A stretch of DNA of 42,871 nt, from assembly GCA_949298635.1 (NCBI GenBank), contig CASFXG010000017.1:1-42871 (forward strand). Reading direction: 5' to 3'. Positions 9,334-35,035 of this stretch are shown in pieces (within the stretch, counting starts at the first letter, position 1; each line of letters opens with the position of its first letter). A program made the position numbers and the translations under genes. The notes beneath the pieces were generated by a model that made no database searches, had not been told where the DNA came from, and saw nothing but the letters and a program-made list of their open reading frames with translations. The DNA comes from an uncultured Coriobacteriaceae bacterium. Lineage in GTDB: Bacteria > Actinomycetota > Coriobacteriia > Coriobacteriales > Coriobacteriaceae.

Positions 9334-9401
9334 TGACTCATTTGGGGACGGGGTCGTTTTGAGTCATTTGACTCATTTGGGGACGGGGTCGTTTTGAGTC
9401 A
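9334..9401 (+). repeat. Tandem REP elements, TGACTCA stem (two copies)
   Basis: Copy 1 is 9334-9366 and copy 2 is 9369-9401. Each is TGACTCA, the 19-base core TTTGGGGACGGGGTCGTTT, then TGAGTCA, so the ends pair over 7 bases and leave the core as the loop. The two copies are identical and separated by 2 bases. The stop codon of the RAYT gene lies inside copy 2. Confidence 0.9.
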
Positions 9402-10154
9402 TTGTACACTCCGGCGCGTTGCACGAGAGATGGTGCTCCGACCGATTCCGGTAAGCCGTTCGATCTGCTTAATCGTAATCCCCGCGCCGCGCAGTTCCCG
9501 CAATCCGGCATCACGACGCTCTCGTGGCAATGCTTTGAGCTGAGCAGGCTCGACGTCACCGAGCACCGAGCGCGCCACCTCCGCCGCCGCATCATCGGGC
9601 ACGCGTTTCGTCGTTCTCAGATAGCCCGACGCGAACCGATCGTCCGTGCAGAATTGCTCGAAGCCCTCTCTCCCGCCAATCATCTCGAGAACCAACGCGT
9701 CTTTGATGATCCGCGCGCCCCATCGATACTCCCCATAGCTGCTCCATCGGTACTCGCTCGCCCGTGCAATGCCGGCTTTCTCGGGATTCTCGTGGATATA
9801 TCTCACCGTCTGAAGCAGCTGTCTGTCATCCGATATCGCCACGCTCGTAAAACGATCTTGAAACACCGCGCCAACATGACCGCTCTTGCCGTTGAAGTAA
9901 CGCGCGTAAGCTGTCGCAAGCGCATGCATCGATTGGCTGAGCATTGCATCTCCGTCATCCAGCAGCAGATGAACATGGTTGCTCATGAGGCACCAAGCAA
10001 TGATGGCAACCCCGTATTCACTCGTCTTTTTCTCGAGAAGGGCGAGGAAGCGGCTCCTATCTTTATCATCCTCAAAGAGCAGCTGCCTCCCGTTTCCCCG
10101 AAAGATCACATGATAGAACCCGGTCTTCGACTGCCGCCTCGGTGCGCGTGGCAT
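9399..10154 (-). CDS. REP-associated tyrosine transposase (RAYT, Y1_Tnp family) with C-terminal HTH
   Basis: The 251-aa protein carries the HUH signature LMSNHVHLLL (two metal-binding histidines about residue 60) and the catalytic tyrosine in VRYIHENPEKAGI. These are the hallmarks of single-stranded-DNA transposases of the IS200/IS605-like RAYT group. A C-terminal segment (GITIKQIERLTGIGRSTIS) looks like a helix-turn-helix, probably for DNA binding. I chose the ATG at 10154 because the GGGGG site is 9 bases upstream; an ATG at 10163 would sit directly on that site. The reading frame is intact, so it may be active. The TGA stop at 9399-9401 is part of the palindromic end of a REP element. Confidence 0.88.
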   Translation of the reverse strand: MPRAPRRQSKTGFYHVIFRGNGRQLLFEDDKDRSRFLALLEKKTSEYGVAIIAWCLMSNHVHLLLDDGDAMLSQSMHALATAYARYFNGKSGHVGAVFQDRFTSVAISDDRQLLQTVRYIHENPEKAGIARASEYRWSSYGEYRWGARIIKDALVLEMIGGREGFEQFCTDDRFASGYLRTTKRVPDDAAAEVARSVLGDVEPAQLKALPRERRDAGLRELRGAGITIKQIERLTGIGRSTISRATRRSVQ

Positions 10155-10275
10155 GGCCATCATCCCCCGTCGTAAGCATCCACCCCTAACACGAGTGAGG
10201 GGTTACATACTAGCGCGCACAAGGCAACGGAGTGGCGGGGCATCGGCAGACGGCACAGGCCTCCGCCGAAGCGGA

Positions 10276-10346
10276 TGACTCAAAACAACCCCGTCCCCAA
10301 ATGAGTCCCCAAATGAGTCAAAACGACCCCGTCCCCAAATGAGTCA
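10276..10346 (-). repeat. REP elements in minus orientation upstream of RAYT (two full, one partial)
   Basis: 10276-10308 reads TGACTCA, core complement AAACAACCCCGTCCCCAAA, TGAGTCC. A truncated core end (CCCCAAA) at 10307-10313 joins it to 10314-10346, which reads TGAGTCA, AAACGACCCCGTCCCCAAA, TGAGTCA. Their orientation is opposite to the pair at 9334-9401. The left flank of the third unit (TGAGTCA) does not pair perfectly with its right flank. Confidence 0.85.
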
Positions 10347-10357
10347 ATGAGTCACAC

Positions 10358-10392
10358 AAAAAAGCCGCCAGCGCGGTGGTTGCGCTGGCGGC
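10358..10392 (-). terminator. Intrinsic terminator of the glycolytic operon
   Basis: Perfect 11-bp stem GCCGCCAGCGC (10364-10374) with GCGCTGGCGGC (10382-10392), loop of 7, followed on the minus strand by six T residues (10358-10363). It lies 41 bases after the gpmI stop codon. It is wedged between REP elements, so the REP at 10400-10432 lies between gene and terminator. Confidence 0.9.
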
Positions 10393-10399
10393 TCGGGGA

Positions 10400-10432
10400 T
10401 GACTCAAATCGACCCCGTCCCCAAATGAGTCA
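10400..10432 (-). repeat. REP element, TGACTCA stem, adjacent to gpmI stop
   Basis: TGACTCA, core complement AATCGACCCCGTCCCCAAA, TGAGTCA: perfect 7-bp stem, 19-base core. It ends one base before the gpmI stop codon, so it would form a hairpin in the gpmI 3-prime untranslated region. Confidence 0.88.
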
Positions 10433-14033: not shown

Positions 14034-14999
14034 TTACGCCACGAACTTCTCGAAGTACTTGATGGTGCGGACCATCTGGGAGGTGTAGGAGTTCTCGTTG
14101 TCGTACCAAGAGGTGACCTGAACGAGGGTCTGACCGTTGCCGAGCGGGGCGCACATGGTCTGGGTGGCGTCGAAGATCGAGCCGTGGGTCTCACCGATGA
14201 TGTCGGTGGAGACGATGTCGTCCTCGTTGTAGGCGAAGGTCTCGGAGATGGTCGCGGCGTAGGCCTTCATAGCAGCGTTGACCTCGTCCTTGGTGACTTC
14301 CTTGTCAACCACGGCGTAGAGGTTGGTGAGGGAGCCGGTGGGGGTGGGAACGCGCTGGGCGGCACCGATGAGCTTGCCGTTGAGCTCGGGGAGCACGAGG
14401 CCGATGGCCTTGGCGGCACCGGTGGAGTTGGGAACGATGTTCACGGCGCAGGCGCGGCTGCGACGCTTGTTGCCCTTGCGCTGCGGGCCGTCGAGCGGCA
14501 TCTGGTCGCCGGTCCAGGCGTGGATGGTGGTCATGATGCCGGACACGATGGGCGCGAAGTCGTTGAGGCCCTTGGCCATCGGGGCGAGGCAGTTGGTGGT
14601 GCAGGAAGCGGCGGAAATGATGTTGTCCTCGGCCGTGAGCTGCTCATGGTTCACGTTGTAGACGATCGTGGGGAGGTCGTTGCCCGCGGGAGCGGAGATG
14701 ACGACCTTCTTGGCGCCAGCGTTGATGTGAGCCTGCGCCTTCTCCTTGGAGGTGTAGAAGCCGGTGCACTCGAGCACGACGTCGACACCGAGCTCGCCCC
14801 ACGGGAGGTTGTTGGCGTCGGCCTCCTTGTAGATGGTGATCTTGCCCTGCGTGGAGTCGTACTTCAGCAGGTACGCAAGCATATCCGGAGAGGTGAGGTC
14901 GTTGATGGCGACGATCTCGGAACCCTCGTGACCGAACATCTGGCGGAACGCGAGACGACCGATGCGGCCGAAGCCATTAATCGCAACCTTTACTGCCAT
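14034..14999 (-). CDS. gap: Glyceraldehyde-3-phosphate dehydrogenase, internally shortened
   Basis: NAD-dependent glycolytic dehydrogenase. NAD-binding INGFGRIGR (residues 7-15), catalytic Cys133 in [15 protein letters not shown], His160 in [31 protein letters not shown] and SWYDNENSY are all present. The protein is 321 aa, about 14-20 shorter than usual. The gap lies right after KYDSTQG (Gly52), where the text jumps to [15 protein letters not shown]; a beta-hairpin region of the N-terminal domain normally lies there. Active-site residues are unaffected. The ATG at 14999 is preceded by AAAGGAG. An AT-rich stretch with TATATT (minus strand, 15071-15076) is a plausible -10 box. Confidence 0.94.
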
Positions 15000-15133
15000 G
15001 TGTGTCTCCTTTCGTAGGGCCCGGCAGGTTCCTTGCCTACCGCTCAGACCCACAAACAAACCACTCACCAAATATACCTTTTTTTACAAGATAGATTCGC
15101 GTGAATAGAGACTTTTTGACGATTCTCTGACAT

Positions 15134-15163
15134 TAAAACGCTTCATATTATTGAAGCGTTTTA
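15134..15163. promoter_or_regulatory. Candidate operator or hairpin upstream of gap
   Basis: Perfect 12-bp inverted repeat TAAAACGCTTCA, spacer TATTAT, TGAAGCGTTTTA, about 135 bases upstream of the gap start codon and just beyond the likely promoter. AT-rich symmetric sites like this often bind dimeric repressors. No matching regulator is visible in the window. It could also be a weak terminator hairpin for whiA read-through. Confidence 0.5.
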
Positions 15164-15194
15164 CAAACAAAACATTCGGTATTTGAATACTAGT

Positions 15195-15343
15195 GCGCGG
15201 GGCCACCCAGGCGGCTGCTTTGTAAAATTACCCCAGGGGTTTTCTGACATGAACTAACGGAATACATTCAGAGCGCTCAGGCAATTCATGTCAGAAAACC
15301 CCTGGGGTAATTTTACAAAGCAGCCGCCTGGGTGGCCCCGCGC
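15195..15343. repeat. Perfect 59-bp inverted repeat, ACCCCAG family, after whiA
   Basis: The arms 15195-15253 and 15285-15343 are exact reverse complements over 59 bases, with a 31-base loop. Inside each arm is the unit TGTAAAATTACCCCAGGGG, followed by TTTTCTGACA. The right arm ends 10 bases from the whiA stop codon. The RNA would be an exceptionally stable hairpin. No flanking target-site duplication is evident. Related units occur at 29007-29116 and 32101-32131. It fills most of the 354-base gap between gap and whiA. Confidence 0.9.
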
Positions 15344-15353
15344 GCCTTGGTCC

Positions 15354-16277
15354 CTACTCGCCAAGGAGCTTTTCCAGGCGGAGCACCCGGTGGTACAGGG
15401 CAGACTTGGAAAGCGGGGGGTCGCACATCTCACCCAGATCGCGGAGCGAAAGATCCGGGTACGCGAGACGCAGGTCGCAAAACTCCTCGAGCGCCTGTGG
15501 CAGGCTTCCCCGCAGGCCGCGCTCCTCGGCCTCGGCGATGAGCTCGAGCTGATGCTGGGCGGCGCCGGCGCTTCTCGTCTGGTTTGCGAGCTCGGCGTTC
15601 ACCTTGCGATTCACCTCGTTCTTCACCGACTTCATCGCCCGCGCATCCTCGAGCACACCCACGGATCTGGCCGCACCCACCGCCTCGAGCAGGCCGCGCA
15701 CATCGTCGCCACTCTTCACGTACACCGCATACGTCGACTTCCGGTGATTCACGCGCGCGTTGATGCCGATCTCACCGATGAGCCGTGCGAGCGACTGGGC
15801 AAACTCCTCCCCTTGCACAGCGATTTCCAAATGGAAGTCACCGCGTGGGTCGGCGACGAAGCCACCGGCGATGAGCGCGCCGCGGATGTATGCCAGCCGG
15901 CAGCATGGCCGCGCGACGACGTGCCGCGGGATACCCGCCACAAGCCCGCCGCGCCGATCGAGCACGCCCAGCAACACGAGCGCCTTGTCGAGCCCCGGCT
16001 GGTCGGGCAGCGAGATGAGGTAGTTACGCACCTTGTGGAGCACCGAGCGCCGCACGGTGAACTCGGTCTTGAGCTTGAGCACCTTGTGCGTGAGTCCGAT
16101 CATGGTGCGCGCCACGGCGCCCGTTTCCGTGGCGACCATGAGCCCGTAGCGCCCCGACCCGCCGAGCGAGAGCGTGCCGCACACGCGCACAAGCGCGGCG
16201 AGCGTCGCAAGGTCGCAGAACTCGCATGCGGGCTCCTGACGCGAGAGCTCGTCGCGCACCTCGGCGGTAAACGACAT
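15354..16277 (-). CDS. whiA: DNA-binding protein WhiA
   Basis: Actinobacterial/Gram-positive regulator of 307 aa linked to sporulation or cell division. The N-terminus MSFTAEVRDELSR is typical. The middle has the degenerate LAGLIDADG-type segment YIRGALIAGGFVADPRGDFHLE, and the C-terminal HTH reads SLRDLGEMCDPPLSKSALYHR. I use the ATG at 16277 because AGGAGG lies 11 bases upstream; a GTG at 16289 would overlap that site. It follows rapZ on the same strand. The yvcK/cofD gene that often sits between rapZ and whiA is absent, and a 41-bp palindrome occupies that gap instead. Confidence 0.95.
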   Translation of the reverse strand: MSFTAEVRDELSRQEPACEFCDLATLAALVRVCGTLSLGGSGRYGLMVATETGAVARTMIGLTHKVLKLKTEFTVRRSVLHKVRNYLISLPDQPGLDKALVLLGVLDRRGGLVAGIPRHVVARPCCRLAYIRGALIAGGFVADPRGDFHLEIAVQGEEFAQSLARLIGEIGINARVNHRKSTYAVYVKSGDDVRGLLEAVGAARSVGVLEDARAMKSVKNEVNRKVNAELANQTRSAGAAQHQLELIAEAEERGLRGSLPQALEEFCDLRLAYPDLSLRDLGEMCDPPLSKSALYHRVLRLEKLLGE

Positions 16278-16300
16278 GTCGATGCCCACCTCCTGTCGGC

Positions 16301-16341
16301 AACATGATAATTTCAGTACCTGGTACTGAAATTATCATGTT
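16301..16341. repeat. 41-bp perfect palindrome, GTACCTGGTA family, copy 2
   Basis: AACATGATAATTTCAGTACC, a central T, and the exact reverse complement. It occupies nearly all of the space between the rapZ stop (3 bases away) and the whiA ribosome site. It shares the outer AACATGATA and the inner TTCAGTACCTGGTA with copy 1 at 1667-1699. Confidence 0.88.
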
Positions 16342-16343
16342 TG

Positions 16344-17285
16344 TCAGTGTGCTTCTCCGTTGGCGGTCATGTTGGCGCGGGGCAGGTCGCGATGCGAGAT
16401 CGTCACGTGGTACTGCTGGCGCTCGAGATAGCGTGCCGTGGCCTCCGCGATGGCCACACTGCGGTGCTGGCCGCCCGTGCATCCCACCGCAATCGAAAGC
16501 TGCGGCTTACCCTCCGCCACATACCCCGGCATGACAGCGTCGAGCAGCTGGCACCATGACGTCCAGAATGCCTGGGTGTTCGGATGCTCGAGGACGAAAC
16601 GCGAGACTTTCTCGTCAAGTCCCGTGAGCTTGCGCATATCGGGATCGTAGAAGGGATTCGGCAGGAACCGCACGTCGATCAAGATATCGGCCTCAACGGG
16701 CATGCCGTGCTTGAAGCCGAAGGAGAACACCTGCACGTCCATGAGCTGCTGGTCGGTGAGCTCGGAGAACGCCATGCGGAGCTTCGTGCGGAGCGCCGAG
16801 ACCTTCAAACGGCTCGTATCGATGATCATATCCGCATGGTCGCGCACGACTGCGAGCTGCGTGCGTTCGCGCTGGATGGCATCGGCCGTGGTTTCGCCGG
16901 GCTTCGCGAGCGGGTGCCGGCGGCGATTCTCGCTGTAGCGGCGGATGAGCACCTCATCCGACGCCTCGAGAAACACCACCTTGCAGCTCATCTCGTGTGC
17001 GCGCAGATTCTGGATGGTGTCGAGCAGCTCGTCGAAGAGCCCCTGGCTGCGCAGGTCGCTCGTCACCGCAAGGTGTCTGCCCACGCCGGTGTTGATGCCC
17101 ACGAGCTGCGCGAGCTGCAGCACGAGACTCGGCGGCAGGTTATCGATGCAAAAATAGCCCATGTCCTCGAAGACGTGCAGCGCCTGCGTGCGGCCAGATC
17201 CGCTCATGCCCGTGATGATAACGATGTCGGGCACGCGGTCAGCGAGCTCGGCCGCGGTGATCACCTGGGGGTTGATGTCTGCCAT
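16344..17285 (-). CDS. rapZ: RapZ/YvcJ-family nucleotide-binding protein
   Basis: A P-loop protein of 313 aa. The N-terminal P-loop is GMSGSGRT (26-33), with Arg in place of the usual Lys, a change I believe is seen in actinobacterial members. It is followed by the family's YFCIDNLPPSLV. The C-terminal domain contains VDVQVFSFGFKHGMP, DVRFLPNPFY and the signature VGCTGGQHRSVAIAE. In other bacteria relatives bind RNA or tune amino-sugar metabolism; the role here is unknown. The ATG at 17285 has AAGGAGG upstream. It is followed by whiA and preceded, 254 bases away, by uvrC. Confidence 0.93.
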   Translation of the reverse strand: MADINPQVITAAELADRVPDIVIITGMSGSGRTQALHVFEDMGYFCIDNLPPSLVLQLAQLVGINTGVGRHLAVTSDLRSQGLFDELLDTIQNLRAHEMSCKVVFLEASDEVLIRRYSENRRRHPLAKPGETTADAIQRERTQLAVVRDHADMIIDTSRLKVSALRTKLRMAFSELTDQQLMDVQVFSFGFKHGMPVEADILIDVRFLPNPFYDPDMRKLTGLDEKVSRFVLEHPNTQAFWTSWCQLLDAVMPGYVAEGKPQLSIAVGCTGGQHRSVAIAEATARYLERQQYHVTISHRDLPRANMTANGEAH

Positions 17286-17359
17286 GGGCTGCCTCCTTGT
17301 ACGCGGGCGACATGGTCTCATCCAGTATACCGCGCACGGACACGGCACGGCGCCGCGCC

Positions 17360-17496
17360 GCTCGTTGCCAAAACATGCCGTTTCATACGCGGAGCACGCT
17401 TGCTAGCACCATTCGTTCAAAAAATATGCCGTTTCATACGCGAAGCACTTCCAAAGATGTCCTTCGCTCGCAAAATATGCCGTTTCATACCCGAAG
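17360..17496. repeat. Three-copy repeat array with exact 51-bp period
   Basis: The sequence AAAATATGCCGTTTCATACG (first copy AAAACATG...) starts at 17370, 17421 and 17472, exactly 51 bases apart. Each core is closed by a short inverted repeat whose sequence differs: GCTC/GAGC (17360-17395), TTCG/CGAA (17412-17444) and CTTCG/CGAAG (17462-17496). The rest of each period is not conserved. It lies in the 254-base gap between uvrC and rapZ. I see no credible gene in this gap. Confidence 0.85.
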
Positions 17497-17539
17497 AACA
17501 TCGAAGCGATAAGCCGGCACCGGCGCAGCAGGGCGAGCG

Positions 17540-28994: not shown

Positions 28995-29006
28995 GACGCC
29001 TCCCCC

Positions 29007-29116
29007 GGCATGTAACATTACCCCAGCGACTTTTTTACATGGCGTATCGAATGCCCTCCCCCAGAAGTTCCATCAGCGTGCCATGTAAAAAAGTCGCTGG
29101 GGTAATTTTACATGCC
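29007..29116. repeat. 37-bp inverted repeat, ACCCCAG family, after uvrA
   Basis: Arms 29007-29043 and 29080-29116 match at 36 of 37 positions, with a 36-base loop. Each arm contains TTACCCCAGCGACTTTTTT flanked by ATGT and ACAT. It starts 16 bases after the uvrA stop codon (minus strand). Confidence 0.88.
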
Positions 29117-29132
29117 GCATATATAACACGCG

Positions 29133-32100: not shown

Positions 32101-32131
32101 ATGTAAAAACACCCCAGGGGTTTTTTAACAT
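32101..32131. repeat. ACCCCAG-family palindrome, single unit, upstream of uvrA
   Basis: ATGTAAAAACACCCC, a central A, then GGGGTTTTTTAACAT: 13 of 15 positions pair. It has the same AAAA/ACCCCAGGGG/TTTT layout as the larger inverted repeats at 15195-15343 and 29007-29116. It lies about 120 bases after the nudC stop codon and 100 bases before the uvrA start. Confidence 0.75.
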
Positions 32132-33494: not shown

Positions 33495-33580
33495 CTTGCT
33501 GTGCAAAAATCATAGAAAGCTTCAATAAGAGCTGCTCGAAATGGCCTTATTGAAGCTTTCTACGCTTTTTGCACAGCAAG
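33495..33580. repeat. 35-bp inverted repeat upstream of nudC
   Basis: Arms 33495-33529 and 33546-33580 match at 33 of 35 positions with a 16-base loop. The outer part is CTTGCTGTGCAAAAA and the inner part TAGAAAGCTTCAATAAG. GCTGTGCAA occurs once more at 33479. It could be a terminator-type hairpin or an interspersed element. Together with the remnants and REP pair it fills the 443-base gene-free gap 33360-33802. Confidence 0.75.
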
Positions 33581-33642: not shown

Positions 33643-33717
33643 CTCGTGCTGCGCCGACCCGTAAAGCGCCTCACCGCCTGGATGGAAGACGAGCTCGAAG
33701 CGGCGCATGTGGCGTAG
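33643..33717 (+). pseudogene. C-terminal fragment of a YhgE/Pip gene
   Basis: Twenty-four codons plus TAG: LVLRRPVKRLTAWMEDELEA then AHVA. The intact protein at 37815-40043 ends LVLRRPVMRLTAWMEDELEA then TQVM. I count 67 of 75 identical bases with 39969-40043. The fragment keeps the frame and the stop codon and lies on the same strand as the intact genes, 6.3 kb upstream of its match. It is a relic of a third YhgE/Pip gene. Confidence 0.8.
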
Positions 33718-33718
33718 C

Positions 33719-33787
33719 GCGTCACTTTGGGGACGGGTACGTTTGTGACGAAAACGACACAAACGTACCCGTCCCCAAAGTGACGCG
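33719..33787. repeat. Inverted REP pair, CGTCAC stem
   Basis: Plus-orientation unit CGTCAC, TTTGGGGACGGGTACGTTT, GTGACG (33720-33750) faces a minus-orientation unit with the same core (33761-33779). Together they form a 29-bp perfect hairpin with a 10-11 base loop. The 19-base core length is the same as near the RAYT gene, while the stem sequence differs. Confidence 0.88.
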
Positions 33788-33802
33788 CGTGATTGCGTGG
33801 TG

Positions 33803-34363: not shown

Positions 34364-35035
34364 CTACTCCTGCAACACTTTGGGGACGGGGTCAAAAGTG
34401 TTGAATTCAACACTTTTGACCCCGTCCCCAAAGTGTTCGTCCCCAAAGTGTTGAACCATGCCGTGCAGACCGAATTCCGCGAGCGTCGCAGCCGTGCGAG
34501 CAAGCTCGTCGGGCGTGCGGGCGCAGCCCTCAAGCATCCAGCAACGCAAAAGCGCGAACAGGCCGCCCAACACATAGGCAAGGCACGCCTCCTGCTCGCA
34601 GGCGGGGATGATGCCGTCGAGCAGTCCGCGCTCCGCGATCTGCCGGCCGAACGCATGGCTCAGGTGCCGGTACAGCACATCGACGGGCACGCGCTCCACA
34701 TAGCGCCGGTCGCGCTCCATGCCTTCCGAGATCGTCTGCACGAGCACCGAGAAGAACACAGCGAGCGCCCGCTCCCGCTCGCCAGGCTCCACGCTGTTCG
34801 GCGCCGCCCGTTCCACTTCGTCGAGCACACGCGCGGCAAGCCCGTCCGTTATCGCTGCAAGCAGCCCGTCGATGCTTCCGAAATGCTGATAGAACGTCTT
34901 CCGGTCGACATCCGCCTCCTGCGCGATGGCGCTCACCGTGATGCGCTCGAACGGTCGCGTGACGAGCAGCCGCTCGAATGCGGAAACGATGAGGCGTCGG
35001 CTCCGCACCGCACGCCTATCTATGCCGTTCGTCAT
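34364..35035 (-). CDS. TetR-family regulator with REP-encoded C-terminus
   Basis: A 223-aa regulator. The N-terminal HTH reads RRLIVSAFERLLVTRPFERI, then TVSAIAQEADVDRKTFYQHFGS, with the family's TFYQHF motif. The ligand domain is variable. The last 30 or so residues (VQHFGDEHFGDGVKSVEFNT and on to KVLQE) are encoded by the inverted REP pair at 34373-34454, so the original end of the protein was probably replaced. The gene is divergent from the YhgE/Pip pair, which it most likely represses. The ATG at 35035 has a GGGGG site upstream; a start at 35095 is less likely. Confidence 0.88.
   Translation of the reverse strand: MTNGIDRRAVRSRRLIVSAFERLLVTRPFERITVSAIAQEADVDRKTFYQHFGSIDGLLAAITDGLAARVLDEVERAAPNSVEPGERERALAVFFSVLVQTISEGMERDRRYVERVPVDVLYRHLSHAFGRQIAERGLLDGIIPACEQEACLAYVLGGLFALLRCWMLEGCARTPDELARTAATLAEFGLHGMVQHFGDEHFGDGVKSVEFNTFDPVPKVLQE
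34373..34454. repeat. Inverted REP pair, CAACAC stem, inside the TetR gene
   Basis: Plus unit CAACAC, TTTGGGGACGGGGTCAAAA, GTGTTG (34373-34403), spacer AATT, then minus unit CAACAC, TTTTGACCCCGTCCCCAAA, GTGTTC (34408-34438) and a truncated third end (GTCCCCAAAGTGTTG). The pair is a perfect palindrome of about 64 bases centred on GAATTC. All of it is in the TetR reading frame. Confidence 0.9.

Follow-up and report, generated by a model that had tools for sequence, protein, structure and literature searches.

A RAYT-linked REPIN behind whiA in a Collinsella-type actinobacterium, with arms that may be kept identical by template switching

REPINs, as defined by Bertels and Rainey (2011, PMC3116915), are inverted doublets of REP units that form hairpins together with a spacer and are linked to RAYT transposases. 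In the extracts of that work on which we draw, the doublets combine near-constant spacing and a variable spacer with a long predicted hairpin, and they are mostly intergenic, reach high copy numbers and are built from a unit that also flanks a RAYT gene; the family described here shares these features. However, its long perfect arms run on into locus-specific flank, its 31-bp palindromic units lack a visible GTAG tag and its host is a Coriobacteriia-type actinobacterium, which sets it apart from the REPINs of those extracts. A second relevant body of work concerns REP dimers with GTAG or CGTC tags and TIRtrons (PMC3733652). The parts of it used here describe homodimers and dimers within palindromes, as in the present family, and also genes for Y1 transposases that have inverted repeats of the GGGGWSAS type on their flanks; in the genome studied here, GGGGACGG palindromes occur at two other Y1_Tnp loci. 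Unlike these tagged superfamilies, our family shows by eye neither a GTAG nor a CGTC tag at the ends of its 31-bp consensus or of the units in the window, and the full text of PMC3733652 never mentions Collinsella, Coriobacter, Eggerthella or Actinobacteria.

Perfect inverted repeats can also arise by template switching, a process known from extracts of PMC7202029 and PMC8604942 to turn quasipalindromes into perfect ones in E. coli and in yeast. As outlined in portions of these and two further papers (PMC8794818, PMC3820800), one arm is rewritten from the other, several bases changing at once, and the outcome is arms that are identical within a copy and divergent between copies, which is the likeness to the family considered here. 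In those portions such correction is reported for reporter genes, yeast genes and RNA genes, from which a REPIN family differs. Judged by title or by the start of the abstract, none of the openly available papers retrieved on REPINs and RAYTs, on REPs in Collinsella, on SbcCD and palindromes, on concerted evolution or on tyrosine transposases in Coriobacteria treats this Collinsella-type family or the copying of REPIN arms in place, and by title none of those retrieved on REPINs and template switching is about bacterial REPs.

The window, as we call the whole stretch of 42,871 nucleotides that was analysed, belongs to a draft genome (G000; 1.93 Mb in 83 contigs, 86% complete) of a Collinsella/Enorma-type gut actinobacterium. 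The original prediction had described a perfect 59-bp inverted repeat beginning 10 bases past the stop codon of whiA, and both statements were confirmed (Table 1), bases 15344-15353 separating the arm from the stop codon at 15354-15356 on the minus strand. The long RNA duplex that had been expected is supported by predicted folding, the minus-strand RNA of the hairpin being predicted to form a very stable duplex of -138.1 kcal/mol (z -20.4; shuffled sequences average -56.2, and none of 200 folds as well); for the plus-strand DNA the fold is -85 kcal/mol (z -18.1 against shuffles). A 22-mer from the outer stem matches the genome only at the two arms of this hairpin, even with up to 3 mismatches allowed, and at gathering scores Rfam returned nothing in the window beyond a tRNA. 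The neighbouring genes, whiA and gap, are adjacent in all 16 relatives whose loci were compared.

Table 1. Coordinates of the hairpin behind whiA, its neighbouring genes and further copies of the family in the window
Feature	Position	Strand	Remarks
Hairpin left arm	15195..15253	+	59 nt, 100% complementary to 15285-15343
Loop between perfect arms	15254..15284	.	31 nt
Hairpin right arm	15285..15343	-	59 nt, 10 bases from whiA stop
REP unit 1	15220..15250	+	31 bp, 2 mismatches vs family consensus
REP unit 2	15288..15318	-	31 bp, equal to unit 1 once reversed
Outer stem, left	15195..15219	+	25 bp, 84% G+C, found at this locus only
Outer stem, right	15319..15343	-	25 bp
whiA, upstream gene	15354..16289	-	Pfam PF02650, PF14527, PF10298
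gap (glyceraldehyde-3-phosphate dehydrogenase), downstream gene	14034..14999	-	PF02800, PF00044
Second inverted doublet	29006..29117	.	38-nt arms, 97%
Single REP unit of the family	32101..32131	+	in the window

Two further palindromes lie close by. At 15134-15163, upstream of gap, the short palindrome TAAAACGCTTCA-TGAAGCGTTTTA is perhaps an operator, and CG-centred sequences similar by eye precede gap in several relatives. A perfect palindrome with 20-bp arms and a 1-nt centre occupies 16301-16341, in the space that separates whiA, on its upstream side, from the ORF at 16344-17348.

A genome search revealed that the middle part of the whiA hairpin recurs at many places across G000, with the inner 31 bp of both arms belonging to a dispersed family. 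A pattern for its 21-base core has 86 exact matches in the genome and the reversed pattern none, and the full 31-bp palindromic unit is present in 126 copies (up to 7 mismatches to the consensus ATGTNAAAWWACCCCWGGGGTTWTTTNACAT allowed, searched in 69 stretches around copies plus the window; 0 when the same stretches are read backwards). Among these 126 units are 35 inverted doublets, most commonly with a spacer of 38 bp. Placed relative to genes by a simple custom gene caller, the 80 unit clusters fall between genes in 68 cases (42 between codirectional, 18 between convergent and 8 between divergent genes), at contig edges in 8 and apparently within an ORF in 4. Both arms of the second doublet in the window carry one and the same subfamily variant, as do both arms of a copy in Collinsella massiliensis (L073). 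The full-length form of the unit also occurs in Collinsella massiliensis (CAPI), C. tanakaei ET10 and ET30, Enorma massiliensis phI and an uncultured Collinsella. Several G000 contigs have ends that lie in or beside REP units (L129, L142, L150, L156, L159, L167 and L168), and the end of contig C5 is a 106-nt imperfect palindrome that is possibly a fold-back artefact.

G000 contains five Y1_Tnp (RAYT-type transposase) genes. Around one of them (C53), on both sides, lie nine units of the family, and the other four loci have none. The C53 protein scores above cut-off for PF01797 and reaches 67.7 bits (E 9.4e-19) with the NCBIfam RAYT model NF047646, whose curated cut-off is 80; a search of solved structures gave no match at E 0.01. 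This locus is shared with a separate isolate genome, G002, the RAYT stretch having 70% DNA identity against 86-93% in the flanking stretches. Because the unit is dispersed, forms inverted doublets and flanks one RAYT-type locus, the whiA hairpin is a REPIN, consisting of two inverted 31-bp REP units and a spacer in the whiA-gap intergenic space, and it is most likely a non-autonomous mobile hairpin served now or formerly by the C53 RAYT. The lack of a target-site duplication had earlier been taken to speak against a simple MITE; this holds as far as it goes, none being visible by eye at 15190-15348, but membership in a dispersed RAYT-linked family had been missed. Under the IS200/IS605-like mechanism proposed for RAYT hairpins there is no reason to expect such a duplication. 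With MITEs the element shares its shortness, non-coding character, inverted ends and dispersal, but neither a DDE-type transposon end nor a target-site duplication was seen, and the link is instead to a Y1 (HUH) transposase.

The two arms of a doublet do not vary independently. Across the 35 doublets of G000, unit identity is 28.54/31 within doublets versus 25.81 between them, and the match also extends beyond the units, both outward (mean 5.89 bp within versus 0.72 between) and inward (2.17 versus 0.45), none of 5000 permutations reaching the observed value in any of the three comparisons. The outward runs measure 42, 32, 30, 25, 13, 12, 9, 6, 5, 5 and 4 bp, the rest being at most 3 bp, and that of the whiA copy is 25 bp. 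Runs of at least 9 bp (9-42 bp, with a flank that differs at every locus) are present in 7 of the 35 doublets versus 0 of 1190 cross-pairs, and of 42 single units only one matches outward over 4 bp or more, the longest such run being 5. In G002 the agreement within copies is found again (29.1 within versus 26.0 between in 10 doublets, 0 of 5000 permutations), with outward runs of at most 3 bp and a mean of 1.2 (47 of 5000 permutations); runs of at least 25 bp (4 of 35 doublets) were seen in G000 only.

Orthologous sites carry the comparison across species. In 11 alignments of unit-bearing regions of G000 and G002, doublets are present in both species at four sites, a small sample in which the two arms of G000 coincide at 119 of 124 positions, against 108 (left) and 105 (right) for orthologous arms. 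The arms of G002 agree with each other at 108 of 124, no better than orthologues do, and two of its four doublets are decayed. In six columns both arms differ jointly from one species to the other; three of these (columns 23, 26 and 27) are at one site (L122/L194). At another site (L181/L208) the flanks are 95-96% identical. Of the four, only L175/L065 retains a spacer that is conserved and can be aligned; at two of them, where the spacer does not align, independent insertion is possible. The closer agreement of arms within G000 than with orthologues suggests that the arms evolve in concert in place. The earlier proposal that the arms of the whiA hairpin were recently made or corrected by conversion thus fits on two grounds, as the arms of one copy are much more alike than arms of different copies, and shared sites show joint change of both arms between two species.

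Taken together, we consider it reasonably probable (about 0.6) that the whiA hairpin is a RAYT-served REPIN whose arms are kept identical in place by template switching, with overrun of the copying giving the outer stem. During replication the quasipalindrome would fold and the polymerase would switch to the other arm, so that one arm would be overwritten with the reverse complement of its partner; a switch running beyond the unit would draw neighbouring flank into the stem and leave a perfect, locus-specific outer stem such as the 25 bp at whiA. We infer both the agent, template switching, and the origin of the outer stem in overrun; arms identical within and divergent between copies are the pattern that such switching yields. 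The identity of the family and the non-independence of the arms are our firmest claims, the copying mechanism being the best inference from them. Since matched REPIN arms are usually taken as a sign of selection for structure, joint changes in both arms together with flank recruited into the stem would point to a mutational mechanism whose traces resemble compensatory evolution and might be misread as selection on RNA.

One could instead imagine that a perfect palindrome of another kind already stood behind whiA and that the REPIN inserted into its tip or its loop; the 25-bp outer stem would then be that older hairpin, and no overrun would be needed. It is tempting to point to G002 and a further genome (G004), which carry other, perfect palindromes at the same whiA site, and to nested hairpins elsewhere: in L158 the unit in the outer arm resembles another palindrome family that also occurs near the C53 RAYT, in L130 a REP-like unit lies in the outer arm, and in L145 a REP doublet encloses a third family (67 of 69 pairs). 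Extracts of PMC3733652 likewise report REP dimers within palindromes in A. variabilis and H. neapolitanus. However, the nested hairpins suit overrun copying just as well, the outer 22-mer is part of no second palindrome anywhere in G000, and a seamless stem would call for a hit at the exact centre that left no unpaired remnant. As such an insertion also leaves the joint changes inside the units unexplained, we regard it as rather unlikely. Still less likely is that selection on RNA or DNA structure, whether for protection, stopping or processing of whiA RNA or for recognition by the RAYT, produced compensating changes without any copying between arms. The very stable fold predicted for the whiA hairpin would suit such selection, as would the mostly intergenic position of the clusters with its excess of convergent over divergent settings, and according to the extracts of PMC3116915 REPIN stems commonly show compensatory changes. 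Yet compensation point by point does not readily yield perfect, locus-specific stems of 25-42 bp, an element of the family is found at whiA in none of 23 other genomes (22 plus G040), and a scan limited to loops of 3-8 found no terminator-like site at 14950-15450.

That a fold-back or a graph error in assembly made the arms identical appears very improbable for the whiA copy, because it is internal to a 42.9-kb contig, gene order is conserved on both sides of it, and the continuation into reversed whiA that would be expected of a fold-back is missing. The draft state of the genome (83 contigs), the clusters at contig edges (8 of 80) and the palindromic contig end would be in keeping with such an error, but within-copy identity of arms recurs in G002, a separate assembly, and a different genus (G006) has long perfect arms as well.

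The setting behind whiA was also compared between genomes. A conserved whiA element was considered and rejected, the family unit being absent from the whiA loci of the 22 other genomes and of G040. The latter (CASEEY) was likewise dismissed as a near strain: it reaches 86% over one stretch, but its WhiA protein is only 76% identical, so that it is no close strain. In G002 an array of a different palindromic repeat lies behind whiA (L100, 1097-1495), which indicates that the 3' side of this gene is used by more than one family. As the original prediction proposed, the hairpin might act as an RNase substrate and a strong transcription block for whiA RNA, which its predicted fold would allow; on visual inspection the stem is not immediately followed by a T run on the whiA strand. 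A phage origin was considered and set aside: neither a locus pattern nor a 31-base motif pattern had a match in viral_contigs, a collection from which near records may be missing.

The family's host lineage is of interest with regard to SbcCD, which in E. coli removes inverted-repeat structures and which mismatched REP dimers have been suggested to escape (extracts of PMC3733652). SbcD scored above cut-off in 11 of 40 genomes (0/21 in genera g1-g5, 4/4 in g6 of the same family and 7/15 in other families), and convincing matches to SbcC (E < 1e-35) were found in the same 11 genomes. SbcCD was not found in the genus of the window; for G000 itself this rests mainly on 99%-complete genomes of its genus, as its own assembly is 86% complete. 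Absence of SbcCD would permit matched REP dimers, and comparison within this lineage could naturally test the published proposal that long matched REP dimers become costly where SbcCD is present. Perfect arms of at least 20 nt number 17 in 600 kb from six SbcD-negative genomes versus 8 in 580 kb from six SbcD-positive ones, and those of at least 30 nt number 5 versus 1 in the same samples (100 kb per genome, 80 kb for G017; the genera are not independent). A higher palindrome load in genomes without SbcD is suggestive only, the counts being low and uneven, with 13 of the 17 in G006 and G008, none in G004 and G007, and contigs of G002 chosen partly as unit-bearing. On a wider and more tentative reading, to which we give somewhat less than even odds, RAYT-linked hairpins in a lineage without SbcCD would be self-repairing palindromes, with one arm repeatedly rewritten from the other, flank captured by overrun so that the perfect stem lengthens, copies concerted within a locus and divergent between loci, and an ability to nest as compound hairpins in which several families are combined. 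Perfect inverted repeats with TGGGGACGTAGC-type units were recorded in G006, a genome of another genus without SbcD (L226, L227 and L229, with arms of 88, 57 and 52 nt).

The window holds several other repeats. A RAYT-like Y1 transposase gene at 9399-10163 on the minus strand (PF01797; NF047646 at 71.2 bits, below cut-off) is flanked at about 9338-9405 and at 10267-10430 by repeats of another palindrome family, whose core is TTTGGGGACGGGGTCGTTTT and which resembles the TIR-type repeats published for such genes. Two palindromes of the GGGGACGG type, perfect or nearly so, lie at 33717-33788 and 34374-34437, the former resembling one beside the C37 Y1 transposase (L061, 834-899) and the latter identical to one in L037 (117-180). 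Another hairpin family, with arms ending in GCTTCAATAAG, is represented at 33495-33580 and also at C9 (L033, 265-352). Finally, three 43-nt direct repeats with a spacing of 51 nt and the core ATGCCGTTTCATACGCG occupy 17361-17505, just 3' of an ORF that we take to be uvrC-like.
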